DNA of 64,000 bases, from positions 884,727 through 948,726 of the forward strand of contig JAHQJS010000004.1 in assembly GCA_019057385.1 (NCBI GenBank), written 5' to 3'. Made by a program: the position numbers and the translations under genes. The DNA is from Candidatus Borrarchaeum weybense. Its GTDB lineage: Archaea > Asgardarchaeota > Sifarchaeia > Borrarchaeales > Borrarchaeaceae. The notes under the pieces were generated by a model that was given only the letters and a program-made list of their open reading frames with translations, searched no databases and was not told the DNA's origin. Shown here in pieces: positions 5,548-30,343 of the stretch (positions are counted from its first letter, which is position 1; each line of letters starts with the position of its first letter).

Positions 5548-6528
5548 TTGTCTCAACAAAAGATTACAAAAGCAATGCTTCAGGAATATTATTCAGACTA
5601 TTTTGATGTGACACCTCTCATCAATATCATTGGATTGTCGACCTTTAGACGCAGAGAATTTGGATTTGACCTTGGCAACACTTTCACAAGAAATCTCTCA
5701 TTCGGAACACCTCGAAAGCTTGTAGATTATATGGGTAATCAAGGTGTCTTTCAAGCATATGTTGGGGCGGTATACTCTGAAAGCCCATCGAAACAACAGT
5801 CGATTCAGAGATTACAATGGGAGTCAAGAGAATTAGTTTTTGATATTGATCTGGATGAATTTGACCTAGTAAGGAGATGTGACTGTAAAGGCGAAAAGAC
5901 TTTTTGTGAGGAATGCTGGACATTAGCGCAAGATGCCATGATTTTTTTAGACGCAACAATGAGGGAAGACTTTGGCTTTGAAGACCTAGTTTGGATTTTT
6001 TCTGGGAGAAGGGGAGTTCACTGCTGGATATGTGATGACATTGCAAAAAAGTTGGATCAAAGACAGCGAAGTGCGGTCATTAATTATTTAACTCTAATAA
6101 AGGAAGGAGAGAAGACTCCTCATGTAGATATGCTCCCTAAGTATGCAAAATCATTGAAAGAAAGAATATTCACTCTGTTATCGAGATCCTTTTTTCTTAA
6201 TACTGCAGAAGCTGAATTAATAAAACTGGGGTTCAAAAAAGGCGATTCCAAAAAAATACTAAAACGTGTGCTAACTGAAAGCCAGTTTAACTACAAGCAA
6301 TTTATTCCTACATATCCATCCATTGATCCACTAAGACTGGCTAAAGCGATAATTATAAACAGATATCCACGAATAGATCGAAAGGTAACACTAGATACAA
6401 GAAGACTTCTGAAAATTCCAAATTCGATTCATGGAAAAACTGGGAATGTTTGTGTCGTTATCAACAACATTTCAAATTTTGATCCTTTTGATGTTCCTTC
6501 TATCTTTGATAAGGTATTAAGTAATTAA
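5548..6528 (+). CDS. priS: DNA primase small (catalytic) subunit PriS
   Basis: The catalytic subunit of the archaeal/eukaryotic primase, which makes RNA/DNA primers together with PriL. The active-site 'FDIDLDEFD' supplies the metal-binding Asp pair (D99, D101), followed by a zinc knuckle with C111, C113, C120 and C123 and by 'FSGRRGVHCW', the conserved SGRRGVH nucleotide-binding segment. A later 'HVDMLP' supplies the third acidic position. At 326 residues it is the usual length. The start used is TTG 5548; ATG 5575, giving MLQEYYSDYF, is a serious alternative because neither has a strong ribosome site. PriL is not in the window. Confidence 0.92.
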   Translation: MSQQKITKAMLQEYYSDYFDVTPLINIIGLSTFRRREFGFDLGNTFTRNLSFGTPRKLVDYMGNQGVFQAYVGAVYSESPSKQQSIQRLQWESRELVFDIDLDEFDLVRRCDCKGEKTFCEECWTLAQDAMIFLDATMREDFGFEDLVWIFSGRRGVHCWICDDIAKKLDQRQRSAVINYLTLIKEGEKTPHVDMLPKYAKSLKERIFTLLSRSFFLNTAEAELIKLGFKKGDSKKILKRVLTESQFNYKQFIPTYPSIDPLRLAKAIIINRYPRIDRKVTLDTRRLLKIPNSIHGKTGNVCVVINNISNFDPFDVPSIFDKVLSN

Positions 6529-6634
6529 CTTATTATCTGAAACCAAATTAACTTATCATTTCAACAATTAACTTATTATCAAGAAAGTGAGATGGTACTA
6601 AAATTTGCCTGAAAAACAAAGATGGTACTAAAAT
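6523..6634 (+). repeat. short direct repeats after priS
   Basis: AATTAACTTATTATC occurs three times (near 6523, 6546 with one change, and 6566), the first copy overlapping the priS stop. A second unit, GATGGTACTAAAAT, occurs twice 30 bp apart (6591 and 6621). The block has no coding potential. It could be a terminator region or debris from transposition at the neighbouring element. Confidence 0.6.
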
Positions 6635-6708
6635 CAAAAGTATCCTCTTGAAGAAAGCCGTGGCTAAGCCTTTTTGAAAGATAATTACTTTTCAGGAAGT
6701 TATCATTT

Positions 6709-7031
6709 CTTCGCAAGAAGCCCCCGCAACGTGTTGGGGGGAGGAATGAAGCGCGTTACTAGTTTCACTTTCACCCAGGTCTCTGTAATTATTAAATAAC
6801 TATTTGCATACATATGACCTGTGTCTACCTGCAGGCAAGAGGTCGGCATGCGAGTACCCTTCTGAATCCTGTATGCCGTAAAGCCCAGTGGATCTGGAAG
6901 GGGACACAGTAGGGCAGGGACTGTCCGATTTAAAGCCTGTGTTAAGTCGATATCTGTTAAAGGTATGGTTGGAGACGCTGCAGGTCGTCTGTGAAGCAGG
7001 AAGCCATTCAACTTGTTGGATGGTAGTTCAC
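6709..7031 (+). mobile_element. non-autonomous IS605-like element (tnpB-end MITE 1)
   Basis: Both edges carry hairpins that look like diverged tnpB 3' ends. The left hairpin (about 6709-6745) reads in frame as SQEAPATCWGEE-stop. The right one (about 6999-7031) reads QEAIQLVGW-stop followed by GGTAGTTCAC, the same pattern as the right end of the complete element at 14162. Between them lie ~250 nt without a gene, including GTTTCACTTTCACCCAGGTC, which recurs in related copies near 8390 and 37490. The right end abuts the stop codon of the membrane-protein gene at 7031. The size and hairpins suit either a MITE mobilised in trans or a stand-alone omega-RNA-like gene. Confidence 0.6.
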
Positions 7032-7726
7032 TAACCCAATTTATATCCTACTGCTTCCCATGCATGTTTCATTACTGGATTATTTTCAAGGTAGGCGTCA
7101 ACTATTTCCTTTGGTACTTTGTTTAGAGGACAGGAGAAATTAACGCATTTCGGACAAACATTCCTTCTTACAGCTATAAAAAAATAGATACCTGCAATAG
7201 AACTAAGCAATGCTAACCCCGTTAATGTTGTAATTGTTATATCGACTGTGTGATATTGATTCCATAATATAAAAAGACCGTAAAGATCTGTCACGACAGG
7301 AAATAGCACAAAAAATACTGCTCCTCCTAAAAACCCTAATTTTTCAAAGATATTCATAGGTTCGGGGTGAAATGCCCATAGTTTTGGAAGCCCATGATTT
7401 GCTAGACAGTGCAGAATCTTCCCTTCTTTAGCATAATAAGGACAATGGCTACAAATGATACGAATTTCAATAATGAAAAAAAATAAGATCCAAAAAATAA
7501 TATTAATCAATAACGGAATCCAGCTAACGTTTAATCCAACAATAATAAAACCAAGAAATCCTAATAGCATAGGAGGTAACAGTATTTTATAGACCTTTAG
7601 AAGTAACTTAACTTCCCATTTACAGTTTAATTTTCCATTTATCTTGCAACTAAGGCAATCTGATTCTTCGTCCCAAGTACATGTTATATATTTATCATTC
7701 TGGACACTTTTTTCTTTAATAGTCAT
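7031..7726 (-). CDS. cysteine-rich polytopic membrane protein, function unknown
   Basis: About 231 residues with four hydrophobic segments, a pair near residues 45-95 ('LLPPMLLGFLGFIIVGL', 'LINIIFWILFFFII') and a second pair in the C-terminal half ('LGGAVFFVLFPVV', 'LALLSSIAGIYFFIAV'). Three cysteine clusters face the same side by spacing: CxxC..C near the N-terminus, 'CSHCPYYAKEGKILHC' in the middle and 'CPKCVNFSCP' near the C-terminus. Metal or iron-sulfur binding is therefore plausible. I prefer ATG 7726 over the longer frame to 7762 because an AATATATC box lies at the 5' edge of the longer form. The family is not recognised. The stop lies exactly at the edge of MITE 1. Confidence 0.75.
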   Translation of the reverse strand: MTIKEKSVQNDKYITCTWDEESDCLSCKINGKLNCKWEVKLLLKVYKILLPPMLLGFLGFIIVGLNVSWIPLLINIIFWILFFFIIEIRIICSHCPYYAKEGKILHCLANHGLPKLWAFHPEPMNIFEKLGFLGGAVFFVLFPVVTDLYGLFILWNQYHTVDITITTLTGLALLSSIAGIYFFIAVRRNVCPKCVNFSCPLNKVPKEIVDAYLENNPVMKHAWEAVGYKLG

Positions 7727-14161: not shown

Positions 14162-14320
14162 GTGAACTACCCCACCCTGACGGATGGAGCTTCCTGCGAG
14201 TCCTCCGAACCATATCCACGAATAGGACTGGGTACTTTCGTTTTACCTTTGGCTGTGTGTCGCAGATTATCAAGAAACACTTGATAGCCCGTCCACTTGG
14301 CATTCTGTGATAGGAAACGT
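14162..14320 (-). ncRNA. candidate omega-RNA at the tnpB 3' end
   Basis: By analogy with known IS605 TnpB systems the guide-RNA scaffold overlaps the last part of tnpB and ends at the right end, with the guide taken from flanking DNA beyond 14162. The terminal hairpin is visible here, but the 5' limit is a guess. Confidence 0.35.
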
Positions 14321-15447
14321 TTCATAAGCACCACACAACTATTTTTGTCTCTGGCAATCACGTTACCACACTCACAGTTCATAACTCGTTCCCACAACGG
14401 CATATAATGGAGTTTACCACACATATAACACTCTCTGGAGGTATTGCGTTCGTCAAATTCTATTAGTCTTTTACCTACTCGTTTCGATTTGTAGGTTAGA
14501 AACTGTACGAACCGCCCCAGCGTACCCGTGCTCTGTGTAGCGCGGTTTAACCCCGATCTCATAAAATTTGGCACCTTCGTTGACTGTGCCATGGCTTTGA
14601 CCTGCAGTTCACCCACGATAAGCGTATTCGCCTTGGTGTTGTTCACTACCTTCGTGCTGAGTTTGTGCTGGAAATCCTTTAGTTGATCATCACGTTTCCG
14701 CTCGTACTTGCGTTTGATACGGTTGAAGAACTTCCACTTGTTGCTGAATTTCTTGCACCTATCCCGCCGTGCTTGTATCTTTGCGATTTTTTGATTCCAG
14801 TATTTATCGGGACGCTGGTTGTTCACCACCAAGAATTTCCCCTGAGAATTGACAGCCGTAATGATATGGGTAATTCCCAGATCAATGGCCTGATACCGTC
14901 CGTTATCCATAAAGAGCGGTTCTTCCATCTCGTACGTGATAGTCACAAAATACCGCTTGTTCTGCTCAGAAATGGCGACTTGTTTTACCTTCTTATCATC
15001 AAAAAAGAATTTCGCAGGGATGGCAAACTCCAAAGGTAGATCATTGTAGTTATGGGAAAAGGAGACTTTTCCGTGTTCTAACTTGAACCCCGACTGGTTA
15101 TAAACCATCGTAGTGAAATACTGCTTGCCTTTGAATCGCGGGAGTCTAGCATCGGCGTGTCCATTTTTTCGCAGGGCAAAGAACGACTCATAATCGGCGG
15201 CTAACGTCCTCAAAACATACTGTAAGACCTTCGAATATACCCAGCTATATTCCGGGTAGTGCTTTTTAATTATTGGCAGGTCGTTTTGCTGTTTTCGATA
15301 AGTCACGCCCTTAATGCCGTGTCTATAGGCGTCCCTTCGCTCGGCAAGGGCAAAATTATAGATGAGTCTGCACTTCTCCGAGAGTTTCCAAAGCACTTCT
15401 TCCTGTTCTAGTGTCGGAAAGATCCTAATTTTCTGTGTCAGTCTCAT
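14167..15447 (-). CDS. tnpB: TnpB RNA-guided endonuclease (IS605 OrfB)
   Basis: A 426-residue TnpB. It starts 'MRLTQKIRIFPTLEQEEVLW', the standard N-terminal helix-turn-helix of OrfB. The RuvC nuclease looks intact: Asp189 in 'AIDLGIT', Glu280 in 'LIVGELQV' and Asp367 in 'IARDKNS'. A zinc finger with four cysteines ('CYMCGKLHY', 'NCECGN') lies between the last two, as in active TnpB. Family knowledge: TnpB cuts DNA next to a target motif using an omega-RNA from the element's right end. ATG 15447 is preferred over GTG 15456. The gene may therefore be a working nuclease that protects or spreads the element. Confidence 0.93.
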   Translation of the reverse strand: MRLTQKIRIFPTLEQEEVLWKLSEKCRLIYNFALAERRDAYRHGIKGVTYRKQQNDLPIIKKHYPEYSWVYSKVLQYVLRTLAADYESFFALRKNGHADARLPRFKGKQYFTTMVYNQSGFKLEHGKVSFSHNYNDLPLEFAIPAKFFFDDKKVKQVAISEQNKRYFVTITYEMEEPLFMDNGRYQAIDLGITHIITAVNSQGKFLVVNNQRPDKYWNQKIAKIQARRDRCKKFSNKWKFFNRIKRKYERKRDDQLKDFQHKLSTKVVNNTKANTLIVGELQVKAMAQSTKVPNFMRSGLNRATQSTGTLGRFVQFLTYKSKRVGKRLIEFDERNTSRECYMCGKLHYMPLWERVMNCECGNVIARDKNSCVVLMKRFLSQNAKWTGYQVFLDNLRHTAKGKTKVPSPIRGYGSEDSQEAPSVRVG

Positions 15448-15718
15448 GGGCTTCACGCAGACTCTGGTATCAGTATTTCTACCCCAAAAAACTATATAAA
15501 ACTAGTGGCTTTCATCCCCCCAGCAGTCGGAAGGGGACTTCCCGCTGAACTAATTAAAAAACAATTTGCATTATAAGTTTGCACGATGCCCCTCTAATTC
15601 TGATAGCAACTATTTTTATTGAAATTATATTAGAATACGTATACAAGGAAAAGAAGTGATTCAAATCTACATTATTTTTAAATTCAATGAGGGCAGGGTT
15701 AGCGTGAGGAGATAATTG

Positions 15719-17378: not shown

Positions 17379-17428
17379 AAAACAATATGCTATAAGAAGA
17401 TATACTCTACAATGTCTTGGTGGGATTA

Positions 17429-18727
17429 ATGAAAGAAATATTCCCAGATTATTACAGTGTTTTACTATATGGTCCTCCTGGCGTTGGCAAATCGGAGTAT
17501 ATCTTTGATTTAGTAGAATATTACCTAAAACATAATAAGAAAGTGATTTATATCACCACATCAAAAAGCCCAGAGCAGCTTATCGAATACGCGAAAAAAC
17601 GTAATCTTGATATCACGAAATATGAAAATAAAACACTTGTTTTTATTGACTGTTACTCATGGTCTGTTAGTAAAGAAGAGAAAAGACTCTCAGTTGATCA
17701 TCCAGCAAATCTAAATAAAATAAGCATTAATTTAGTAAAAGCTGTAAATACATTGGGGATGCCAGTTAGAATAATTTTTGATTCATTATCTACACTTTTT
17801 CTTCATAGCCAAGCAGACGTCATTCTGAAGTTTGTTCAAACCATCACATCTCGAATTAAATCAGAATATGGCTTCATCCTTCTTTCAATGCAAAAGGGGA
17901 TGCATAATCAAGAACATGTCACCACAGTGTATTCTATCATGGATGGCGTCATAGAAATGGATTTCGAGGAAGAAACACTCGGAAAACATTTAAGAATTCA
18001 TCATCTAGACGGCTTTCCACATGAATCCATTTGGATACCGTACAAGGTAACCCCTCATGGGACTGAGATAAATCCTGAAAACCTTCAAAAGATTGTTTCT
18101 TATAACGCAAAAACAGCACAACAATCAGCAAGATTCATTAAAAAAGCTGAAAAGTTGCTTTCAGATATTTTTGCGAAAGCTATGGTTGATAATCTTATTA
18201 AATCATATCTTACTAAGTTAGGAATAACACGTGACACTATTGAACAAAATCATGCCAAAAAAATTACGGAAATGATCCACAAAGATATAATTAAGTTTAC
18301 TGGAAAAGATCCTGGCAATTTGGAGAAAGTGTTATTAGGTGATTTTATTAAACGTAAAAAGATTCTTGTTGTAGAAGATAATGAAGATTTTCGAGTTGCC
18401 ATTAAAGAAATCCTAAAACTAAAGGATTATCAAGTTGTTACAGCAGTAAATGGTGTAGAAGCTATAGACTCCGCCGAAAGAGAGCATCCAGATCTGATTT
18501 TAATGGATATTGGTCTCCCTGTGCTTGATGGATATGAAGCCACACGCCGTTTGAAATCTAAGGAAACAACTAAAGATATTCCAATAGTGGCATTAACCTC
18601 ATTTGTTCTCAAAGGGGATGATGAAAAAGCATTAGCTGCTGGATGTGATGGCTATATTCCTAAACCAATCGATATGGGCGGATTTCCACAAAAGGTAGAG
18701 CGTTTTTTCGAAACTGGCGTTCTTTGA
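17429..18727 (+). CDS. KaiC-like ATPase fused to a CheY-type receiver domain
   Basis: A 432-residue fusion. Residues 1-220 are a diverged KaiC/RecA-like ATPase with Walker A 'GPPGVGKS' and Walker B-like 'VRIIFDSLSTL'. A helical linker follows (about 225-305). Residues 309-425 form a response-regulator receiver domain: acidic pair in 'ILVVEDNEDF', phospho-acceptor Asp in 'LILMDIGLP', Thr in 'ALTS' and Lys in 'YIPKPID'. Phosphorylation could thus gate ATPase activity. Start ATG 17429 follows GGTGGGA; the frame is open to TTG 17417. No histidine kinase is in the window. Its stop lies within a few bases of repeat copy A. Confidence 0.88.
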   Translation: MKEIFPDYYSVLLYGPPGVGKSEYIFDLVEYYLKHNKKVIYITTSKSPEQLIEYAKKRNLDITKYENKTLVFIDCYSWSVSKEEKRLSVDHPANLNKISINLVKAVNTLGMPVRIIFDSLSTLFLHSQADVILKFVQTITSRIKSEYGFILLSMQKGMHNQEHVTTVYSIMDGVIEMDFEEETLGKHLRIHHLDGFPHESIWIPYKVTPHGTEINPENLQKIVSYNAKTAQQSARFIKKAEKLLSDIFAKAMVDNLIKSYLTKLGITRDTIEQNHAKKITEMIHKDIIKFTGKDPGNLEKVLLGDFIKRKKILVVEDNEDFRVAIKEILKLKDYQVVTAVNGVEAIDSAEREHPDLILMDIGLPVLDGYEATRRLKSKETTKDIPIVALTSFVLKGDDEKALAAGCDGYIPKPIDMGGFPQKVERFFETGVL

Positions 18728-18880
18728 GTCACTTTTTTCGTCCCTGAGCCTGTCATTCATCCCTGTCTTCGAAGGCGTGGGACCTCTCGGGTTTTGTCTC
18801 ATGCACAAGAACGTGTGCACCGCGTGGTGCGAAGAACATTCCGCCTTGTAGTTAAAACATTTGCTGGTTATTATAAGAGT
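18728..18880 (-). repeat. ~130-bp repeat, copy A
   Basis: First of three related copies (A, B, C), all in the same orientation. On the minus strand they share CACGTTCTTGTGCATGAGAC (GCGCATGAGAC in B and C), then GAGAGGTCCCACGCC, a variable stretch, ATGACAGG and GGACGAAAAAAGTGA. Copies align over ~110-150 bp, with indels in multiples of three, and in one frame all encode a peptide like TFLxMRxNxRGPTP..NDRxxDEK. This suggests descent from a coding sequence. Copy A sits between the GIY-YIG gene and the convergent KaiC-REC gene. Confidence 0.7.
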
Positions 18881-18930
18881 CATGAGCATGATTTCGAGCA
18901 TTCCTATACCTCTAGTATCCGTGTTTCTTT

Positions 18931-19221
18931 TTAAGAGAGTCCACAAAATTTGTTTACGTTATCCACAAATTCTTGATCAAAGGGTTTCTCAATTAACTTC
19001 TTTTTCTTTTGATGCGTAAGTTTTTTTATTTCGCGTTCTCTTTGAATTGCCTGACGTTGGGTTCGGAATTTTTCTACATAGTACAATTTCTTGACTTTGT
19101 ATCTTTTAAGATATCTGGCGCCTTTCCCATCTAAATGGAGTTTGAGGCGCTCGAAGATATCTTTAGTATAACCTGTGTAGAACGTTTTATTTTTACAGAG
19201 AATTACGTAGACGTAAAACAC
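18931..19221 (-). CDS. GIY-YIG nuclease-domain protein (UPF0213/YhbQ-like)
   Basis: A 96-residue single-domain protein. It has 'VYVILCKNKTFYTGYTKDI', the GIY-YIG core in the usual variant YVY..YTGYT, followed by the conserved Arg region 'FERLKLHLDGKGARYLKRYK' and the Glu in 'RQAIQREREIKKL'. The Arg and Glu are catalytic in the family. I place the start at GTG 19221, with GGTGAT 8 nt upstream; a longer frame runs back to 19401 but only by reading through repeat copy B. It lies downstream of the Cas6-like/HD gene on the same strand. Single GIY-YIG proteins occur in repair and in mobile elements; its link to the Cas-like genes is positional only. Confidence 0.85.
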   Translation of the reverse strand: MFYVYVILCKNKTFYTGYTKDIFERLKLHLDGKGARYLKRYKVKKLYYVEKFRTQRQAIQREREIKKLTHQKKKKLIEKPFDQEFVDNVNKFCGLS

Positions 19222-19227
19222 TGGGGT

Positions 19228-19400
19228 ATCACCTTTTTCGTCCTTATACCTGTCATTCTTAGCCATCATCTGAGGCGTGGGACCTCTCAGGTTTAGTCTC
19301 ATGCGCAAGAACGTGTTTTCCGCGTAGTGCGAAAAACATTCCGTCTTGTAACCTGTATAGCAGTTAGTGATTATAAAATGTGATATCATATCCCTCTGCA
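19228..19400 (-). repeat. ~130-bp repeat, copy B
   Basis: Second copy of the A/B/C family, between the Cas6-like/HD gene and the GIY-YIG gene. Its end (GACGAAAAAGGTGA) supplies the probable ribosome site of the GIY-YIG gene. In frame it encodes TFLRMRLNLRGPTP and NDRYKDEKGD, joined without a stop to the GIY-YIG frame. Confidence 0.7.
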
Positions 19401-19426
19401 TTATTTTGACCTCGATTTAAATATCT

Positions 19427-20236
19427 CTAAATACTTGCTAAATCGTTTATGTAAAGATTAACCATTAAGAGTAAGTGATTTTTCAGCGAGGAAAAGCCAT
19501 AACTGAGAGCCTCATTAATTTTCTGCAATTCTTGAGACTTACGAATATAGGTATAAAGTGCAAAGAGAGAATGTTGCCGCTTCTCAATGTCACTCACTAG
19601 CGCTTGAAAATCAATTTTTTCTATTTCCGAAATGCGATAGCGTGATGTCGCTTTCCAACGAAATTTTCGAGATATACTGGAAGACAACCTGTCATAATAT
19701 TGGAGAGTTGACAATAAAGGTACCTCTGTGTCATCAATCTCGTAGTTATGATGATTTTCAACTAATTGATGGATATATTCATCACTGATAGAAACCTCAT
19801 TATAGATTTTGCTGTTATGTCTCTCGGTATGGACGAAATCATGTAGAAGCATGGCAATCAGGAGTTTTTGTTGTGTGTCTGAGAGTTTAGGGAGCATTTT
19901 TCTGATGGTGATTTTTCTCGAGACGAAGAGAGGCTTCTTGTGGAGTTTTTTCACTTCTTTCCATTGTATGCGTCCCATGCCTTCATGGGTATAGCGTCCG
20001 AGGCGATCCAGAGAGATTGCAGTTTCAAGTTTATGTTCTGGAACAATAAACTCGATATTACCATACCAAGCCCTGAAGGTCATAGGTGCCCGTCTTTCGC
20101 CTTTTGTAAGTTTACCGAAGGCTCTAGGTCGCCCATGAATTGTTATAACTCCCAGACCAGTAATTCCAAATCTTCTTCGCTTAGAAACTACAGGCGTTTT
20201 CGTTATTCCTGTTAATTTAACCCAGTTTTTTACCAT
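19427..20236 (-). CDS. Cas6 C-terminal-like RAMP segment fused to an HD domain
   Basis: A 269-residue protein. Residues ~50-92 read 'FRAWYGNIEFIVPEHKLE' and 'LDRLGRYTHEGMGRIQW', close to the C-terminal glycine-loop region of Cas6-type RAMP proteins (G-x-Y-T/L-H-x-G-x-G); the N-terminal RAMP half of Cas6 appears to be missing. Residues ~115-190 look like an HD domain: 'LLIAMLLHDFVHTERHNS' (H132-D133), 'VENHHNY' (H162-H163) and 'LQYYDRLSSSISR' (D182). The HD, HH and DRLSS order is what is seen in Cas10 HD domains. The rest is helical. It could process RNA or cut DNA, but activity is inferred. It is preceded by an inverted-repeat operator candidate and by a promoter shared with the Cas7-like gene. 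The call is moderate because the family match is by eye. Confidence 0.6.
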   Translation of the reverse strand: MVKNWVKLTGITKTPVVSKRRRFGITGLGVITIHGRPRAFGKLTKGERRAPMTFRAWYGNIEFIVPEHKLETAISLDRLGRYTHEGMGRIQWKEVKKLHKKPLFVSRKITIRKMLPKLSDTQQKLLIAMLLHDFVHTERHNSKIYNEVSISDEYIHQLVENHHNYEIDDTEVPLLSTLQYYDRLSSSISRKFRWKATSRYRISEIEKIDFQALVSDIEKRQHSLFALYTYIRKSQELQKINEALSYGFSSLKNHLLLMVNLYINDLASI

Positions 20237-20258
20237 TTCTAATCCTCTTTATAGTGTT

Positions 20259-20287
20259 TATCCCGTTAAAAATGATATAACGGGATA
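20259..20287 (-). promoter_or_regulatory. 10-bp inverted repeat, operator candidate
   Basis: TATCCCGTTA (20259-20268) and TAACGGGATA (20278-20287) form a perfect 10-bp inverted repeat with a 9-bp spacer, in the leader of the Cas6-like/HD gene and overlapping the edge of its TATA region. A repressor site or an RNA hairpin in the leader are both possible. Confidence 0.6.
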
Positions 20288-20321
20288 TCTAAACGTATCG
20301 GTTTCTTTACCTTTTGTTCGT
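20281..20321 (-). promoter_or_regulatory. shared promoter element, copy upstream of Cas6-like/HD gene
   Basis: On the minus strand the element reads ACAAAAGGTAAAGAAACCGA followed by TACGTTTAGATATC. It matches the element at 21341-21381 at about 33 of 38 positions. The 3' part (TTTAGATATC) sits where a TATA box would be and the 5' part where BRE or an activator site would be. Confidence 0.65.
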
Positions 20322-20332
20322 AAATTGGATAT

Positions 20333-20450
20333 CACTTTTATCGTCCCGTTGCCTGTCATCCGTCCCCATCAGTACTGGAGGCGTGGGACCTCTCAGATGG
20401 TTCAGTCTCATGCGCAAGAACGTGCCACCCGCGATACGCAAGCAGCAGAC
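20333..20450 (-). repeat. ~130-bp repeat, copy C
   Basis: Third copy of the A/B/C family, between the Cas7-like gene and the promoter of the Cas6-like/HD gene. In frame it encodes TFLRMRLNHLRGPTP and DDRQRDDKSD, with one extra codon in each of two places relative to copies A and B. Confidence 0.7.
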
Positions 20451-20496
20451 CATCAGGGATGAGAAAAAAGAAATAAAATGAAATAGTGCCGATTCC

Positions 20497-21300
20497 TTAA
20501 GCATTTGAAGCCCTTCGGGTATGTAATGAGACTACAGTTTCCCTCCAATCCTCGATGTTATCAAGCGCAATTGACTCAGCTTTAGTTTTTTCAGAGAACT
20601 TATAGATACCATCATTTCGCTCTAACTTTTTCTCAATGTCAACGTTTTGGAGATCAAAGTCCAAAAGTTTAACCTGTCCATAGCCTGCATTCTTACCGCC
20701 ACCAAGAGTTTCGATATAGAGCAATGACTCAATGAGAAATTTAATTTCCTCATCAGTTAATTGTGTCACATCGATAGAGAAGGTGAAGTAGCCGCTGAAA
20801 TAACTTTGTCGAAAATCCTGAATTGGAACGCCATCAAAACTTAAGGCTATCCTTGTTTCGCTGGCGATGTGAACCTTCTGCACCGCTACATTCGTCTCAT
20901 AGTCTTTATGAGAGATTGAGGTAATGGGATCTGCCGAGACAGAGATACGAGACTCTTTGTGAAAACTGCCGAAGATACGTTGTAGCATGCAAGGGGGATC
21001 ACAACTACCCAGTACATGAAATCCCACAGGCATCAATTTCGTACCATCCTTGAGTTCGGTTTTTTCACTGGTATGGCAAACTTCAATCCCACAATCATAC
21101 GCAAGTTTCATAGCTGCATGTCGTAGCATGCCACGCAGACCCTTGATGTAGTACACTTTTGTATTGAAGACCTTATCTCCGTTTACATAAGGAATTTCGC
21201 CGAGAAGTAACATCGTAGAATTCTTTTGGATAGAGGCATTTAGAGGCTTGGCAATCGGGGTATAGGCACGAACTACAATCTGTTTTTTAGTGGTTTTCAT
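20497..21300 (-). CDS. Cas7-group RAMP protein (Csf2-like)
   Basis: A 267-residue protein with the marks of a Cas7-type backbone RAMP. 'YYIKGLRGMLRHAAMKLAYD' at ~51-69 parallels the GxSLRGxLRRxA segment of type IV Csf2. Then come 'CDPPCMLQRIFGSF' (C100, C104 and the FGS turn), 'RISVSADPITS' at ~118-128, and the glycine loop 'LGGGKNAGYGQVKL' at ~199-212. Cas7 proteins coat crRNA in effector complexes. The Csf2 resemblance is my best reading; Csm3/Cmr4-like ancestry is possible. No large subunit gene is adjacent. It starts at ATG 21300 with the shared promoter element 40-80 bp upstream. Confidence 0.68.
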   Translation of the reverse strand: MKTTKKQIVVRAYTPIAKPLNASIQKNSTMLLLGEIPYVNGDKVFNTKVYYIKGLRGMLRHAAMKLAYDCGIEVCHTSEKTELKDGTKLMPVGFHVLGSCDPPCMLQRIFGSFHKESRISVSADPITSISHKDYETNVAVQKVHIASETRIALSFDGVPIQDFRQSYFSGYFTFSIDVTQLTDEEIKFLIESLLYIETLGGGKNAGYGQVKLLDFDLQNVDIEKKLERNDGIYKFSEKTKAESIALDNIEDWRETVVSLHTRRASNA

Positions 21301-21625: not shown

Positions 21626-24600
21626 TTAGGTTAAGAGTCGAGTCATAGGCACAGGGGGCCCCTTGCCTATCGATTTACAAAATCGCTCGATGCTTCGGAA
21701 CATCTCAAAGATCTCCTGAAACTGTCCCTCATCTGATAAATAGACAAAGGGGATAAATGGAGTTTCGTTTAACAAAAATCCGGCAAGATAACTGGCACAA
21801 CGATTCATAGCTTTCCTTAAAGTCATATAATTGCGATCATAATAGACGACCTCATCCATCAGTTCTTGAAACAATAACCACATCTTTTCCTCAGCACTTT
21901 CTTTTAATGTATACACTTCTTCGCCACGGGGAGTGTAAGATAACTTGAAATCATCCTTGGTGATATCCCCCTTTTTACATGCTTTTACATAAGCGTACCT
22001 GAACATGGGAAGGAACATTTCACGGAAATCAAGCACCGCACCAATAGAGATTTTTTGTCCTGCAGCTCTCCGATAATGGAGTACAAGTTCACCCGGAAAC
22101 CACGAAAAACCGACATCCCATAACACCTTTTGACATTTTTTCAATAGTTGTCTCTTTAGGGCATTAATTCCTGCACTAAAGGGAGAACGCCCTTTGGCTT
22201 CTCCCATAAATAGCGAGGACGCTACATAACGATCATAGGTACGACTGCGGCATTGCATCGCAGTATCTTCTAAGATGAGTTTCCACACCTGCCAAACCAA
22301 TCGCTCTCCATCTGCTTCATAACTGAGTAAGTTTTCTCGACTACCCGTCCAGTGGATAACTGTATGGGCGACAACGTTCATTTGACCTGCGAATAGCCTA
22401 TTTACATCCGCAGATTCTAACATACCATCCTTTTCAGCTTGCAGTGTAAGGAGTGCATTGCTTGCTCGTTTGCTCATATCTATTTGCCATGCCAATAATA
22501 GGCCATCTTCCTTTTCCCTGATGAAGTCAGCTCTTGCCTTTAATTTCTCAGTTAAATTCTCATCTTGAGAGATCTTATATCCTTCAAACGGGACACGAAT
22601 TGAGTCGTCTCGCTCCTCGCCATACACAATTCGTCCTTTAAGTTTTATACGCATAAATTCGGAAAGACCTACATCGCCTATTACTTTTATCCGCTCTATA
22701 GCATCCAACCGATGGCTACGTGAAAAGCCTTCCTTCGATATATAATGAAGCATATGTCGATTAATCGTGAGTTCATCCCCTTCCCTCACAGTCAGCCATA
22801 CATATTGTCGTTGAAGCTCACCCTCTGTCTTTGCAACCACTTTCACAGGTTTAATAGACCTTTTTAAGATGATCTCAAGTGCCTCTTGAAGAAGATCTTT
22901 CGTTCCTGGCTCGACCTTAATCCTACCATCATGAAGCAAAAAATACAGCGAATTACACTGAGGACATAGTGTGTACTGAGCATATGACATCGGTTCCTTT
23001 AATACTGCCTTTTTACAGATGCGACAGATTGGAGTTCCTTGTGTTGTTCGTTCAAAATCCCTAAAAGTCCTGCTTTTTCTTTTTCGAGAGGAATTATGAA
23101 ATCGACAGGCAGCGGTACAGAGCGTGATATCGGTAGTCATGGCACGGTGTCCAAGCAGTCTATTATATTCTGCTGATAATTCACATAAAAATCGTTGATC
23201 CACTCGTTCCTTTTCATAGTCATTTGGACAGGGCATTCTAAAGACACAGGAACCACAGGTTTTTAACATATGTTCTGGAATAGCGGTTTCTTCGCTACAT
23301 ATTCGTTTCACAGGACGTCCCACACCCTTCCCTCTCGGAAAACGTACCACTTTCCCTTGTACGTCTAAGTCGAGCACATTCCAAATAACTGTGGTAAGAC
23401 CGACTGAGTGTTCATAGTGAGCAGAGATCCGTTTATGAAGGTCTTCATAGGTAGTGATTGTTCCGTCCTTTAGTGTCGAACTAATAACGTCTTGGATAGT
23501 TTTGTGTGGTGATGGTTTTTTTTGAGGGTAAAATCGCACTTTTGATCCCCGTTCGAGTTCACTTTTTGTTGTAAGTAACTCACAGATGTGCTCTGCAGCG
23601 TCAACCAGTAATGGATTCTCCATTGTTACAAAGGCATGAACCGCCTCAGCGATCCAGGCTGCGGTTCTTCTGCTTTCTTCGGCATCTCCTAGCCACATAT
23701 TCACCTCATTTGCCGCTGTTTCGAGCTCGTAATCCTCGATTAAAGCTTTTATAAAATAGGTGTAATGTTTGGTGCTATACTTTCCATTGATGTTGTAAAC
23801 AGTCTCTGCGATTATGTCAGTAATCGCCCAATAGGCAGCTTCATTCATGGAAAATCGCTGTTCCTGAAAATAACAGCGTATATTGTTTCCAACAACCGCT
23901 GGCAGTAGGAACTGGCTTGCCCACCTTCCGATAGTCGTCGCTTTATATTTGCCACCCTTCTGTTCTACCAATTTACAGGATATGAGTTCGCGGAGATACA
24001 ATTTCACATCATTTTTTAACTGCTTCTCATATCGCTCAAGTTCTTCAATTTTATGCTCTTTTAAAAGATCGAGAAAAAACAAAATGGGTTTCCTTAGCTT
24101 GATGGAATCCTCATAGTGTTTCAGAATACGATCATAAACACAGTCAAAAAATCCAATTACAAACTGTTTATACTGCTCGATTTCTAGATCGTCGTAGTTG
24201 TCATTATCGTTCAAAAGCGAAAGAAGTTTGTTACTGTTCCGTTTGGAAACCTTAAAACTTTGATGCTGATACAGTTCGGTCTTGATTACTTCTGTATACT
24301 TCCTGATCAGTGCTTTGTGCTCGTAATACATGTAAAATCGTTGCAGATGCCTGATGAGCACACCACTAGACACAGCACCGCGTGACACTCTATACAGAAT
24401 AATATCCTTTAAATTGTGCTTTGAATGGCTCCTCAAACGTTCTTCCTCGAACTCTATTCCTTTTTCAGTGATTTTGATCCTTTTTTCTCCATAAAATGTT
24501 TCTATGCCGCTTTTAATGATCAGGTTGGCATATCCGATTTCGTAAAATTCTGGTCGTGCCGTCCTACCAACCATTGATTCCAAATCCTGTGGACTATAAA

Positions 24601-25597
24601 TCGTCGCATCGGCATCGGCGATAATCACCCGTAACACCGGAGCACTGATCCCCTCTTTATATTCAGTTGTAAAAAGCACGTTAATTTTGCCTTCTTGAAA
24701 GGCTGTCATCCGTTTTTGTCGTTCAACAGCACTTAACCCAGCATGACTGAAGGAAACTGTAATATCAATTCCCTCTTCCTCGAATTTGCAACTCAATTCA
24801 GCAGCCCTAAGCTCTGCCTTTTTCCTTGAGGCACAGAACACCAGTACACATCTTATATCAGTCTGTTGGGTACTCACTTCCATCGCGTATGTACCCTTAA
24901 CTAATTGTGCAATGACGTACATTTGTTCATCGTCATCGGAGACCTTGATAATAGGTTCAATCACAATTTCTGAATGACGTTCATCAGTCTCAATGATCTC
25001 AGCCCCAAGCCAGTCTGCTACCTCACCAATATCCTTGACCATCGCAGTCAGGTAAAGTATTTGAGGTCGGGATCGCAACCACGATTGCGTTTTGACGATA
25101 ACATCCTCCAAACGACTCCCACGCTGCATTTTGCCTACGTAATGCATCTCATCAATAACAACAAGCCCTAATTTTCTCAATAATGAGTATTCATAATTCC
25201 TCATTAACATGCCGTTAAAGGATTCAAAGGTAGTAACAATGATTTCCGCCTTCTTTAATACACGATGGGGTGGCTTCTCCTCTCCCGTCACTTTGACGAT
25301 GCGATACTTTCTGCGGTAGCGTGGCAGGCTGTCAAACCATGCCACAAGACGGTTGTAGGTCTGATCGATCAGCCGTCGATTCGGCACCAAAAACACGCAT
25401 CTTTGTTTTATCCCGAGTATAAAAGTGGCACATATAAGGGGGATGAGTGTCTTACCTGCGCCGGTTGGGGCTTTCACCAGCACATCCTTTTCTTTAATAA
25501 AGGCGGCAATAGCCTTCTCCTGAAATTCAAAGAGTTGTTGATATCCTGCCCGCTTGAGTCGTTCCCATACCGAATACCAATCCATGATGCGTGGCAT
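21626..25597 (-). CDS. superfamily-2 helicase fused to Cas1 integrase
   Basis: A 1323-residue fusion. The N-terminal ~650 residues are a Ski2/Hel308-like helicase: Walker A 'APTGAGKT' (43-50), 'VVIDEMH' (146-152), motif III 'LTAM' (183-186), 'FTTEYKEGISAP' (309-320) and motif VI 'QDLESMVGRTARPE' (337-350). A winged-helix-like stretch follows (~695-765), then two cysteine clusters (C781, C784, C790, C805, C827, C831; and C858, C861, C878, C881). Residues ~928-1270 read as Cas1: beta domain with 'LDAIERIKVIGDVGLSE' (964-980), then Glu1110 in 'ILEDTA', 'PFSAGINALKRQLLKKC' (1139-1155), His1174 in 'LVLHYRR', and Asp1190/Glu1193 in 'AVLDFREMFLP'. The 64-residue Glu-to-His spacing equals that of known Cas1. 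No Cas2 is nearby. TATA-like TTTATAAG is ~40 bp upstream. Confidence 0.85.
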   Translation of the reverse strand: MPRIMDWYSVWERLKRAGYQQLFEFQEKAIAAFIKEKDVLVKAPTGAGKTLIPLICATFILGIKQRCVFLVPNRRLIDQTYNRLVAWFDSLPRYRRKYRIVKVTGEEKPPHRVLKKAEIIVTTFESFNGMLMRNYEYSLLRKLGLVVIDEMHYVGKMQRGSRLEDVIVKTQSWLRSRPQILYLTAMVKDIGEVADWLGAEIIETDERHSEIVIEPIIKVSDDDEQMYVIAQLVKGTYAMEVSTQQTDIRCVLVFCASRKKAELRAAELSCKFEEEGIDITVSFSHAGLSAVERQKRMTAFQEGKINVLFTTEYKEGISAPVLRVIIADADATIYSPQDLESMVGRTARPEFYEIGYANLIIKSGIETFYGEKRIKITEKGIEFEEERLRSHSKHNLKDIILYRVSRGAVSSGVLIRHLQRFYMYYEHKALIRKYTEVIKTELYQHQSFKVSKRNSNKLLSLLNDNDNYDDLEIEQYKQFVIGFFDCVYDRILKHYEDSIKLRKPILFFLDLLKEHKIEELERYEKQLKNDVKLYLRELISCKLVEQKGGKYKATTIGRWASQFLLPAVVGNNIRCYFQEQRFSMNEAAYWAITDIIAETVYNINGKYSTKHYTYFIKALIEDYELETAANEVNMWLGDAEESRRTAAWIAEAVHAFVTMENPLLVDAAEHICELLTTKSELERGSKVRFYPQKKPSPHKTIQDVISSTLKDGTITTYEDLHKRISAHYEHSVGLTTVIWNVLDLDVQGKVVRFPRGKGVGRPVKRICSEETAIPEHMLKTCGSCVFRMPCPNDYEKERVDQRFLCELSAEYNRLLGHRAMTTDITLCTAACRFHNSSRKRKSRTFRDFERTTQGTPICRICKKAVLKEPMSYAQYTLCPQCNSLYFLLHDGRIKVEPGTKDLLQEALEIILKRSIKPVKVVAKTEGELQRQYVWLTVREGDELTINRHMLHYISKEGFSRSHRLDAIERIKVIGDVGLSEFMRIKLKGRIVYGEERDDSIRVPFEGYKISQDENLTEKLKARADFIREKEDGLLLAWQIDMSKRASNALLTLQAEKDGMLESADVNRLFAGQMNVVAHTVIHWTGSRENLLSYEADGERLVWQVWKLILEDTAMQCRSRTYDRYVASSLFMGEAKGRSPFSAGINALKRQLLKKCQKVLWDVGFSWFPGELVLHYRRAAGQKISIGAVLDFREMFLPMFRYAYVKACKKGDITKDDFKLSYTPRGEEVYTLKESAEEKMWLLFQELMDEVVYYDRNYMTLRKAMNRCASYLAGFLLNETPFIPFVYLSDEGQFQEIFEMFRSIERFCKSIGKGPPVPMTRLLT

Positions 25598-25743
25598 ACA
25601 CCATCAATAGTAAAACTTAGAAATTTGCTTATAAAGAAGGTAAGAGGAGCTGACAGCAACCTTTTTTCCACTTAAAGGTTTATGTAATTAGAAATCCATG
25701 TAGATGGTAAGAATTATTTTTGTTACTTAGGAAGGTGGGGCTT

Positions 25744-27678
25744 ATGGGACAGAAGTTTGTGACGGTTCATGGCAAGAAATATTATGTTAAGGGTGGTAAG
25801 CTAGACTTTCGTAATTGGGCACTTAAGAATATCGCCAAAATTGAAGGGTTAGAAAATCTTACCAACCTTAGGGAGTTATACCTTTATAGTATTCATTTAG
25901 AATCGATTGAAGGTCTAGGCAATCTCACAGAACTTGAAAAATTAAGTCTTGGCGGCAATAGAATAAGAGAAATTAAGGGATTAAGAAATCTTACTAACCT
26001 CCAAGAACTCGACCTTAGTGGGAATAAGATAGAGGTGATCAAGGGACTGGAAAACCTCACTAAACTTCAGGTACTAAATCTTTATAACAATGGGATACGG
26101 GAAATCAAGGGATTAGATCAACTCACCAAACTCCAAGAACTCAACCTTGGTAGGAATTATATAAGGGAAATCGAAGGATTGGATCTCTTCTCAAACCTCC
26201 GCATACTGGATCTAAGTAGTAATTGTTTTACAGTATTCAAGGGAAGCGTGCGTCACGGTACATATTGTATTTCCGAAATCCAGGGGCTGGAAAATTTGAA
26301 AAACCTACATACGCTGAATCTTGCAAAAAATCAGATCAAGGAAATCACCGGTTTGGAAACGCTCACAAACCTCACAAACTTCGATCTGAGTCATAATCAA
26401 ATTACCGAGATCAAGGGATTGGAGAACCTTACCAAGCTCCAAGTACTCAATCTGTATGGGAATCAGATAGATGAATTCAAAGGTCTTGAGCACCTTACAA
26501 GGCTCAAAGAACTTGATCTTAATTGGAATCCAATAAGGGCTGGAGAAAGACATTTACTAAAAGCAAATGCAAAGAAAGTGGTAAAATATTGTCAAGACAA
26601 AAAGGCCGACAAGTTCCCGAGTGTAGAAGTCAAGGGAAGAACATTTCCTATACTAACCGAGGTTATGGATCTCAGAAATTTGAAGATTACCGATATTGCA
26701 GAGATTAAAGGATTGGAGGCGTTTACTAAAGTCACCGTGTTAGACCTTAGGGGCAATCAAATAACAGCTATTAGTAACCTACATCATCTTACCCAACTTC
26801 AAAAACTGAATCTTAGTGGGAACATGATCACCGAAATTAACGGTCTAGAACAACTTACCAAGCTCAAAGAATTACATATTTCGAATAACCAAATAAATGA
26901 GATCAAAGGCTTAGAGACACTCACTGGACTCCAAAAATTAAACCTCAGTGGCAATCAAATAGAAGAAATCAGTAACTTAGAGCCTCTTGCAAATCTCCAG
27001 GAACTAAATCTTGAGAGAAATCAGATTAAGACGATTAAGCAACTGGAACAACTCACCACCCTCAAAACATTAAACCTCAAGAAAAATCAAATACAGGAAA
27101 TTGAAGGACTAGATAGCCTTGTAAATCTCACCACACTCGAGCTTGAGTGGAATCAAATCAGCGAGATTAAAGGACTGGATAATCTTGTAAATCTCATCAA
27201 ACTTGATCTTGAAGAGAATCCGATCACCGAGATTAAAGGACTGGATAACCTTAAAAGTCTTAAGAACGTCTACATTACTATAGACCTTATAAGAGATGAT
27301 GAATGGGACATAGTTTGCAGTAAAGATGCACAGGTTGTTGTGAGATACTGCCAAAGAAAAACGAGAATGGAAAAGGGGGAAGATGAACTGGAAGATGAAC
27401 TGGAAGATAAACTGGATGAAGGAAGATTTGAATCGGCATTTGATACTTGGCGACACGAAAGAGATTTGGAAAGGTATTTTGATATTAATCTTCATGCAAG
27501 TGATTTTGATATTGATGAGGATTGGGAGATGTATAAATTAGATGAGGGTATTTCGATAGGACTAGTATATTTTATGGAAGACATATTCCGAGAAGAACTG
27601 CGTGGTAATAGGCTTTCACAACACGAACTAATTGAGAAAATAAATGAGTGGCTTAGACCATATTTAACTACAGAGTAG
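25744..27678 (+). CDS. leucine-rich-repeat protein 1
   Basis: About 644 residues, almost all LRRs of the SDS22/internalin 22-residue type, with the consensus L-x-x-L-x-x-L-N-L-x-x-N-Q-I-x-E-I-K-G-L. The protein is modular. It opens with 'KFVTVHGKKYYV', runs through ~11 repeats, has an internal junction (Ala-Lys-Lys-Val-Val-Lys-Tyr-Cys-Gln, then Ser-Val-Glu-Val-Lys-Gly-Arg), and restarts a second block of ~10 repeats ending in 'VVVRYCQRK'. An acidic, non-repeat tail of ~100 residues follows. There is no signal peptide, so it is probably a cytosolic binding scaffold, as for many Asgard LRR proteins. ATG 25744 has a strong GGAAGGTGGGG ribosome site. Confidence 0.9.
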   Translation: MGQKFVTVHGKKYYVKGGKLDFRNWALKNIAKIEGLENLTNLRELYLYSIHLESIEGLGNLTELEKLSLGGNRIREIKGLRNLTNLQELDLSGNKIEVIKGLENLTKLQVLNLYNNGIREIKGLDQLTKLQELNLGRNYIREIEGLDLFSNLRILDLSSNCFTVFKGSVRHGTYCISEIQGLENLKNLHTLNLAKNQIKEITGLETLTNLTNFDLSHNQITEIKGLENLTKLQVLNLYGNQIDEFKGLEHLTRLKELDLNWNPIRAGERHLLKANAKKVVKYCQDKKADKFPSVEVKGRTFPILTEVMDLRNLKITDIAEIKGLEAFTKVTVLDLRGNQITAISNLHHLTQLQKLNLSGNMITEINGLEQLTKLKELHISNNQINEIKGLETLTGLQKLNLSGNQIEEISNLEPLANLQELNLERNQIKTIKQLEQLTTLKTLNLKKNQIQEIEGLDSLVNLTTLELEWNQISEIKGLDNLVNLIKLDLEENPITEIKGLDNLKSLKNVYITIDLIRDDEWDIVCSKDAQVVVRYCQRKTRMEKGEDELEDELEDKLDEGRFESAFDTWRHERDLERYFDINLHASDFDIDEDWEMYKLDEGISIGLVYFMEDIFREELRGNRLSQHELIEKINEWLRPYLTTE

Positions 27679-27831
27679 GGAGTTTCCTTGAGGTGATTTT
27701 AGAAAACTTGAGAGAGATCGCAGATTCAATAGCTACATAATCTCAAGTAAATAATACAAAGCGTTTCGAACATTCAATCCAGTAACTGCACTATAAGGAA
27801 TCAATTTTTCCTCTTCAACAGAGGCTATGAA

Positions 27832-27897
27832 GATGCCCAAGAGATTGTAAAATACTGTCAAGAAAAGGCTCGAAAGGTAAAACAAGAAGGCGGTTGA
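27832..27897 (+). pseudogene. C-terminal fragment of an LRR-protein gene
   Basis: Codons for 'DAQEIVKYCQEKARKVKQEG' plus a final Gly and a stop lie 23 bp before LRR protein 2. This is the same module end as in the two intact LRR genes, without its repeats, so it is the tail of a deleted third LRR gene. Confidence 0.75.
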
Positions 27898-27919
27898 GGG
27901 AAACAGAGGGAGTTAAAGG

Positions 27920-30343
27920 ATGGGAAAAGAGGAGTTTGTGACGGTTAATGGCAAGAAATATTACATCATAGAGAACAACTATACAAAGCGTCTAACCTTA
28001 GATCTTAACCATGCCAAAATTTCTGATTTTAAGGATGTTAAGGGATTAGATACTTTGACGGACTTACAAGTTCTGATCCTTGATCACAATCTGCTAAGAC
28101 AAATCGAGGGGGTAGATGCTCTCGCTAATCTAGAAGATTTAGTCCTCTCACACAACAAAATTACAGAGATAACGGGATTAGAGACCCTCACCAATCTCAA
28201 AGCATTAGATCTTAGATATAATCAGATCATAGAGATCAAGGGGTTGGAGAATCTAAAGGACCTCTATTATCTTAACCTTGACGGCAATCAGATCACAGAG
28301 ATTAAGGGATTGGAGACCCTCACCAATCTTCGTGAACTACATCTAGGATATGTTGATATTTTTGAAAGGCTTTCACGGAGATTATATGAAGCATATGGTG
28401 GAGATTTAGAAGAGTTTAAAGAAGAGAAGCATCGCAATCGTATAAGAGAGATCAAGGGATTGGAGAGCCTCACTAACCTTAAACTACTAGATCTACGTGG
28501 CAATAAGATAACAGATCTCAAGGGACTGGAAAATCTTACAAATCTGGAAGAAGTATTTCTTGAAGACAATCCGTTACAAGCTGCAGATCAGATTAAATAT
28601 AGCAGGGATAGGTATTACACGTCGTCGATTGTGGAATATTGTCAAAAGAAAAAAGAGGGTAAAATCCCCTTTGTAACAATTAAAGAAATAAAATATTATG
28701 TGTATGAAGCGGAATTGGGAGAAGCCTTATACCTTAGCGAGTTAGGAATTACCGATACCGCCGAAATTGAAGGATTAGAAGCACTTACTCAACTTATAAA
28801 CCTCAATCTATCCTCAAATCAAATCACCGAAATTAAAGGACTAGAGAATCTTTCTAATCTGGAAGAACTAAACCTTGAGAACAATCCGTTACGAGAGAAT
28901 GAGAAACATCTGATAGATCAAAGTGCTCAGGTAATTGTAAAATACTGTAGGGACAAAAAGGAGGGTAAACTGAAATATGTGACAGTTGGAGAAAAGCAAT
29001 ATCAGGCTAGCAACGACATACTCGACCTTAGCGATCAAGGTATCACTGATATAACTGAAATTAAGGGTTTAGAATTCCATTTTAGTCTAAGGAAACTATT
29101 TCTTAATAATAATAACATAAAAGAGATTAAAGGCTTAGAGAAACTCTCTTCTCTACAGGAATTACATCTCAGTAATAATCAAATCAAAGAGCTCAAAGGA
29201 CTCAAGAATAATACACTTCTCGAAACATTAAATCTTAATGGGAACCAGATAGAAGATCTCAGTGAATTAGAGCATCTTAAAAACCTAAGAGAATTATTTC
29301 TTAATAACAATCACATAAAAGAGATTAAAGGTTTAGAGAACCTTCATAATATACATAAATTAGATCTTCGCAACAACCAGATACAAGAACTTAAAGGATT
29401 GGAAAACATTTCTAATTTAGTAGATCTGTTCCTCGAAGACAACCAGATACAAGAGATCAAAGAGTTGGACAACCTTATTCATCTTAAAGAGCTTCATCTA
29501 GCAAGAAATCTCATAAAAGAGATTACAGGGCTAGTAAAACTTACTAATTTAACAAACCTTAATCTTAGTTATAATCAAATTGAAGAACTTAGGGGCCTTG
29601 AAACGCTTACTCATCTCAAAGAATTATACCTTGAAGGGAATCCGATAAGAGAATGGTCTATGGCATTTATGAAAGTGTTTGATGGAGATAAAGAAACGTG
29701 GTATACGCGAGATGTGCAAGATATCGTAAATTATTGTAAAGATAAGAAAGGGGGCAAAATACCTTTTGTTACAGTCAAAGGAAAAAGGTATCATGCTTAC
29801 GATGACGATCGAACTGAATACTACTATCATCATTTCATCTTAGATGACCTCGGCAACAAATTAGAACCTCAACTTAGATTAAACCTTAGCGGGTTAGGAA
29901 TTATTGATATTAAAGAGATTAAGGGCCTAAAAGATCTTAAAAACCTCCAAGTATTAGATCTCAGTCAGAACAAGATCAAGGAAATCGCCAGGCTGGGATC
30001 CCTTGAAAATCTCGCGATCTTACATCTTGAAGAAAATATGATCACAGAAACCAAAGGGTTGAAACCTCTAAAAAATCTCCAAGAACTCTATCTCAACAAT
30101 AATCAGATACTTGAGATCAAAGATGTGGAGTCTTTCAAAAACCTCTATTTGCTAAATCTTGAGAATAATCAAATAACAGAGGTAAAAGGTTTGGAGGCGT
30201 TAATTAACCTTGAGGAACTTAGACTTGAAGGAAATCCACTAGAAGTCGATGAACGACAGTTTATTTATATTGGCAGAACTGACGCAAAAAAAGTTGTGAG
30301 GTACTGCCAAGAAAAAGCTAACAAGGCAAAGGAAGGCGGGTGA
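27920..30343 (+). CDS. leucine-rich-repeat protein 2 (four modules)
   Basis: An 807-residue LRR protein built from four modules. Each begins with a 'FVTVxGKKYY' strand, carries 2-8 LRRs of the same 22-residue type as LRR protein 1, and ends with a cap such as 'VIVKYCRDKKEGK', 'SIVEYCQKKKEGK', 'DIVNYCKDKKGGK' or 'KVVRYCQEKANKAKEGG'. The first block contains an insertion of about 30 residues rich in charged residues between repeats. No signal peptide or transmembrane segment is visible. It probably arose by duplication and module shuffling with its neighbour. Binding partners are unknown; LRRs of this class often act on small GTPases or phosphatases. Confidence 0.9.
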   Translation: MGKEEFVTVNGKKYYIIENNYTKRLTLDLNHAKISDFKDVKGLDTLTDLQVLILDHNLLRQIEGVDALANLEDLVLSHNKITEITGLETLTNLKALDLRYNQIIEIKGLENLKDLYYLNLDGNQITEIKGLETLTNLRELHLGYVDIFERLSRRLYEAYGGDLEEFKEEKHRNRIREIKGLESLTNLKLLDLRGNKITDLKGLENLTNLEEVFLEDNPLQAADQIKYSRDRYYTSSIVEYCQKKKEGKIPFVTIKEIKYYVYEAELGEALYLSELGITDTAEIEGLEALTQLINLNLSSNQITEIKGLENLSNLEELNLENNPLRENEKHLIDQSAQVIVKYCRDKKEGKLKYVTVGEKQYQASNDILDLSDQGITDITEIKGLEFHFSLRKLFLNNNNIKEIKGLEKLSSLQELHLSNNQIKELKGLKNNTLLETLNLNGNQIEDLSELEHLKNLRELFLNNNHIKEIKGLENLHNIHKLDLRNNQIQELKGLENISNLVDLFLEDNQIQEIKELDNLIHLKELHLARNLIKEITGLVKLTNLTNLNLSYNQIEELRGLETLTHLKELYLEGNPIREWSMAFMKVFDGDKETWYTRDVQDIVNYCKDKKGGKIPFVTVKGKRYHAYDDDRTEYYYHHFILDDLGNKLEPQLRLNLSGLGIIDIKEIKGLKDLKNLQVLDLSQNKIKEIARLGSLENLAILHLEENMITETKGLKPLKNLQELYLNNNQILEIKDVESFKNLYLLNLENNQITEVKGLEALINLEELRLEGNPLEVDERQFIYIGRTDAKKVVRYCQEKANKAKEGG

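Follow-up and report, generated by a model that had tools for sequence, protein, structure and literature searches.

In the archaeon Candidatus Borrarchaeum weybense we describe a CRISPR-derived module which, judged from its sequence, is probably mobile and may well insert beside particular genes selected by the 3′ tail of the structured RNA that it encodes. The module comprises a helicase-Cas1 fusion, a Cas7-like RAMP protein, a Cas5-like RAMP/Cas10-type HD protein and two to three copies of a structured RNA of ~130 nt. Its components recur together: the helicase-Cas1, the Cas7-like RAMP, the Cas5-like/HD protein and the sequence carrying the RNA structure are found in each other's company at dispersed sites. 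At five of 11 module loci, the gene at the junction is represented in the tail of one RNA by a copy 31-37 nt in length (20 codons in L048). The copy that led to this work lies in a 64,000-nucleotide stretch of DNA, analysed as a whole and referred to here as the window.

The helicase-Cas1 fusion and its partners

The fusion gene (21626..25597, minus strand) encodes 1323 amino acids in which three parts share one frame: an SF2 helicase (residues ~10-365), a Cys-rich middle (~780-885) and a Cas1 domain (~1000-1296). The sequence-only reading had proposed a helicase joined to a complete Cas1 in a single frame, and this was confirmed by a match to the PADLOC Cas1 profile (E 9.2e-7) and by residues E1094, H1174 and D1190, which are identical in all seven aligned sequences. 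The same reading had misassigned the catalytic glutamate to Glu1110; the residue is instead E1094, with H1174 and D1190 unchanged. Judged by this alignment, the window fusion carries the predicted, conserved Cas1 Glu-His-Asp triad, and it was assigned to the Cas1 fold. Paralogs of the fusion exceeded the curated cut-off of the Cas1 profile. The profile search of the window copy returned no Pfam Cas1 match, and the Cas1 part of the L015 copy, compared with the PDB by sequence, gave no match up to E 10. Immediately 5′ of the gene, a region at 25598..25685 (minus strand) holds a TATA-like box and marks how far the nucleotide homology (87%) to L021, the B. yapensis copy, extends. Adjoining the module (25720-30343) are two long genes for leucine-rich-repeat proteins, which contain DNA repeats of 66 nt; similar repeats occur near the L014 copy.

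The Cas7-like RAMP protein of 267 amino acids (20497..21300, minus strand; Pfam RAMPs, E 4.1e-9; PADLOC Csm3, E 4.3e-10) shares 61-89% identity with six other copies. Gene 3 (19427..20236, minus strand) joins a Cas5-like RAMP (residues 1-105) to a Cas10-type HD domain (residues 119-269). The predicted structured RNAs lie on the same strand: a class A copy at 20324..20459 (119.6 bits) and two class B copies, B1 at 19221..19350, with a TATA-like box upstream, and B2 at 18721..18850, which forms the right end of the module. Between B1 and B2 lies a GIY-YIG ORF (18931..19401, minus strand; Pfam GIY-YIG, E 3.3e-15) whose frame overlaps B1. B2 abuts the 3′ end (18676..18727, plus strand) of a KaiC/response-regulator gene (17417-18727), and its 3′ tail extends antisense into that end. 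The final codons of the response regulator differ between the window and the related genome G003, with the peptide GVL* unchanged. The corresponding stretch of G003 has the response regulator, the GIY-YIG region and RNA B1, together with 51 nt of the fusion gene, and both the module interior and RNA B2 are missing from it.

No CRISPR array was detected at any of the 11 module loci (the 64-kb window and ten loci of 16-20 kb), while the same scan recovered the canonical L019 array with 49 copies. In that array a 37-nt repeat occurs about 49 times; together with a canonical class 1 cas operon that encodes a Cas1 of its own (G000:C4:153602-154474, which is L019 8594-9616, and L019 3435-7131), it stands apart from the modules. 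Among the ten window ORFs scanned, none of them small, there was no Cas2 and no PolB. The module proteins of the window include no Tn7-like transposase family, and no TnpB/IscB was found within the window module. A TnpB/OrfB gene (OrfB_IS605, Cas12f1-like TNB) lies apart from the module at 14167-15456 (minus strand), and an ORF that appears TnpB-like by eye is situated upstream of the partial module L048 (5985-7511).

The conserved ~130-nt element sits between and after the partner genes. Alignment of 18 copies yielded a predicted structure with a basal helix, an inner hairpin and a 5′ hairpin that is variable yet compensated: 27 pairs, 95.7% of cells paired and 14 pairs with two-sided changes. 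None of 500 shuffles reached the same level on any of five measures, and slid versions of the structure attained 43-53% as against 95.7%. On this alignment, the module sequence has a conserved, compensated putative RNA structure. A covariance model found 25 copies genome-wide and 7, 3, 21 and 33 copies in four relatives. A TATA-like box was present upstream of 14 of the 25 class B or solo copies tested (from a set of 49), compared with 5.5% of random windows. Eight of 48 RNAs (win_B2, L014_B, L047_B, L054, L055, L097, L104 and L111) end ≤15 nt from the stop codon of a convergent ORF; random placement gave a mean of 0.66, and no run in 500 reached eight.

No Rfam family was matched at gathering score in five module loci. 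The match to SNORD50 near the window module (18500-20700; E 1.2) was dismissed as chance, and nothing else from Rfam was found there. Hairpins 3′ of the tail proved uninformative, since 75% of random windows qualify. A reading of the RNAs as CRISPR spacers was also rejected: two tandem RNA pairs in G001 are spaced by 29-36 nt, yet TATA-like boxes occur within these gaps. At L095 (G001:C73), compared with L017, the start of an S19e-like gene has two tandem RNA copies directly upstream, and the S19e-like block is inverted relative to G000.

The Borrarchaeum-type genome holds six copies of the module, one of them split, with the same two partner genes and RNA. Five further RNA loci (L047, L048, L049, L051 and L052) have the RAMP and/or gene 3 without the fusion, and four carry RNA alone. 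When the same fusion was sought in 59 genomes, the Cas1 part appeared among the matches listed only in G000 and G003, which belong to the same genus; in the remaining genomes the matches listed fall on the helicase parts. Gene 3 is more widespread: of 227 genomes of the phylum, 23 contain matches, as many as 10 in a single genome, and the RAMP adjoins gene 3 in all 12 inspected loci of other families. One additional gene 3 copy (G000:C5:81462-82274) lies outside the set of module loci. The structured RNA was found at none of 19 loci from other families, the single match (L172) being of the same genus, and no relatives of gene 3 were confirmed among viral contigs. At L154 (family f24), the RAMP/HD pair lies near a 523-aa LAGLIDADG protein (5711-7282; 26.1 bits, cut-off 22.5), together with a 672-aa protein matching Cas1 (E 5.5e-5) and a PD-(D/E)XK protein, a neighbourhood that resembles ARAMP by its published description (PMC8730458, PMC12669027). 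ORF starts in L155, L156 and L159 are similar to the LAGLIDADG protein, which was profiled in L154 alone.

Insertion sites and RNA tails

Comparison with sister genomes, which are drafts, revealed the module-bearing stretch to be an insertion at L015, L017, L018 and L051. At L018 the module lies within a PRC-barrel gene that is uninterrupted in G003. The junctions there carry an 8-bp direct repeat with one mismatch, seen at this site only, and the element tested has no terminal inverted repeats at its ends. G003 also offers a clean empty allele for L015 and an uninterrupted gene start for L051. In L015 (where it spans 10.6 kb), L017 and L051 the inserted stretch exceeds the module, which therefore does not define where the element ends on the left. 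A dispersed repeat of ~320 nt with a 117-nt core, present in many copies per genome and at many places in G001-G003, lies at 13117-13436 of L018 and is absent from the orthologous site in G003.

At several sites the hit gene is followed by a 5′ end or a 3′ end that has changed, or by a second copy that is complete. At L017, the 5′ remnant of an ftsY-like gene (codons 1-38) lies beyond the module and ends at the start of the tail match, and on the other side is an intact ftsY-like gene with a diverged 5′ end; G001 has a single gene. At L048 an hsdM piece (residues 169-303) precedes the module, after which come an hsdM that is complete and one more 3′ piece (residues 581-857, 59% identical); which hsdM copy was the original is something we infer.

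The stretch 3′ of each RNA was compared with the gene at the junction, using 26 control loci each for L018_B, L051_A and L017_B. For the L018_B tail, 31 of 32 nt agree with the G003 allele (score 29.5, control maximum 13.0) and 26 of 32 with the gene at its own locus; as the test was devised after seeing L018, this case is not independent. The target at L018 shows extra divergence (6/32 versus 11/241, p 0.008), a single post hoc case. The L051_A tail matches G003 at 35 of 37 nt (33.0, control maximum 13.5) and scores 22.0 in G001 and 9.0, which is no match, in G002. The L017_B tail agrees with G001 at 29 of 35 nt (20.0, control maximum 14.5) and with the gene at its own locus at 28 of 35. L015_A1 matches its own flank at 27 of 31 nt, beginning about 5 nt off the junction (21.0 versus 13.0), and fits the G003 empty allele poorly (13.5); the L015_A2 and L015_B tails gave no match in this test. 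The L048_B tail encodes hsdM residues 309-328 (14 of 20 identical), the preceding hsdM piece ending at residue 303. A sixth case, L016_B, is marginal (26/34 nt; 14.0 versus a control of 13.5, and 11.5 in G002). The junction is at, or ≤8 nt from, the tail match in L015, L017 and L018, and in L017 and L018 the match starts where the interrupted sequence has its edge.

A same-strand scan of 49 RNAs (one unscored) against their own downstream regions left most tails at background. No separate downstream copy above controls was found for the tails of win_B2, L014_B, L047_B, L049_B, L052_B, L050, L053, L054 and L055, several of which run straight into a gene. The matches seen for the L107_B and L108 tails were discarded as evidence for a guide, being part of longer coding similarity, which in L108 is between two similar genes of the locus.

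These tails might be explained by a casposon-like Cas1 transposon that chooses its site without RNA, the RNA at its right end reading into the flanking gene and the copies being native flank later separated. We consider this unlikely. The RNA end merely abuts a gene at many loci, the L048 and L016 tails can be read as native flank, and the modules are scattered, with partial and solo remnants alongside them, all as this explanation would have it. Read-through accounts for abutting tails but not for the L015_A1 tail, which cannot be read-through flank because it lies ~1.7 kb inside the module. Furthermore, the L018 copy lies 317 nt inside the junction, and the matches are of similar length (31, 32, 34, 35 and 37 nt in L015, L018, L016, L017 and L051).

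A model for guided insertion

The best reading, and the simplest single account, is of a mobile element that moves by Cas1, is guided by RNA and spares the gene it targets, a proposition we hold with evenly balanced confidence. We infer that the module expresses its RNA and performs guidance, cutting and integration. The RNA would be transcribed together with its tail, whereupon the RAMP proteins would bind it and locate matching DNA. The helicase and HD domain would open and cut the target, as a split Cas3, and the Cas1 domain would join the module at the edge of the tail match. The altered gene copy would then spare the host and block re-targeting. A new guide might be gained by capture of a short piece via the fused Cas1, although this is a guess.

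More tentatively, the module could be a natural target-and-rescue homing element. A Cas7/Cas5-HD/helicase ribonucleoprotein with a 31-37-nt guide would cut the host gene, Cas1 would integrate at the match edge, and a recoded or foreign gene copy that no longer fits the guide would be supplied. The sequence-only reading had suggested a new form either of spacer acquisition or of transposition; the present findings fit transposition rather than standard CRISPR. That reading was made without the Cas7-like RAMP, the Cas5-like/HD protein, the structured RNA, the other copies in the genome or the evidence from insertion sites.

An array-less host defence of the ARAMP type, in which the RNA is a fixed scaffold, the helicase, HD and Cas1 domains degrade invading DNA and copies spread by duplication or transfer, we rate lower than the transposon. 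The protein kit does resemble array-less ARAMP/HRAMP as described in PMC8730458 and PMC12669027, the combination of HD and helicase resembles interference, and much unpaired RNA sequence is conserved. Defence, however, leaves unexplained the tails that copy the interrupted gene, and several modules occupy positions within genes or at gene borders where relatives have an uninterrupted allele. Helicase-Cas1 could, as a novel kind of CRISPR adaptation, add single 'spacers' to the 3′ end of the RNA gene, one-guide RNAs then replacing the array. This would suit a conserved scaffold followed by differing tails of spacer-like length but is very improbable, as the tails recognised in our comparisons with host loci match a neighbouring host gene.

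Relation to known systems

The earlier view that the fusion fits no standard CRISPR subtype holds, although array-less Asgard systems (ARAMP) with diverged, type III-like Cas5 and Cas7, a diverged Cas1 and a nuclease have been published (PMC8730458, PMC12669027). By published description our module is similar, being Asgard, array-less and equipped with diverged Cas5 and Cas7 and a distinct Cas1. It differs in two fusions, of Cas1 with an SF2 helicase and of the Cas5-like domain with HD. Target-copying RNA tails and gene-edge insertions are absent from the ARAMP descriptions in those two papers, as are the fusion and the RNA from the accounts in them and in PMC11656645 and PMC10910872. A literature search on Cas1 with helicase-Cas1 returned no such fusion. 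What is new here is the RNA tails that copy the junction gene; the protein kit resembles published ARAMP.

Compared with canonical CRISPR-Cas, the module has no array beside its cas genes. Like type I Cas3 it possesses a helicase and an HD domain, but these reside on two different proteins, where each is joined to a further Cas domain. Casposons employ a Cas1-type integrase and have terminal inverted repeats and PolB. The module shares with them Cas1 as the likely transposase, and the short, imperfect direct repeat at L018 is a candidate target-site duplication of the kind casposons make; the module differs in the L018 element having no terminal inverted repeats and in the RAMP/HD proteins and RNA. 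No PolB was seen among the ten window ORFs scanned. With CAST the module would share RNA-guided insertion by class 1 effector parts, our working model, whereas it has neither the Tn7-type family nor an array, and Cas1 would be the integrase. In OMEGA systems (TnpB/IscB), a single nuclease is accompanied by a guide region 3′ of a structured RNA, near the right element end and matching the insertion site. The module likewise has a site-matching putative guide region 3′ of a structured RNA near its right end, but with Cas7/Cas5-like proteins in place of the single nuclease and, in L015, with the matching tail inside the module.

If the proposed mechanism is correct, the apparent sparing of the genes hit, including one that is ftsY-like, would parallel in nature what home-and-rescue drives have been engineered to do, and the enigmatic array-less ARAMP systems would gain a testable function. 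Cas1, the integrase of CRISPR adaptation, would drive RNA-guided DNA insertion without Tn7 proteins, offering a new programmable insertion machine, and casposons, CRISPR effectors and OMEGA-style guides would be linked in one system.
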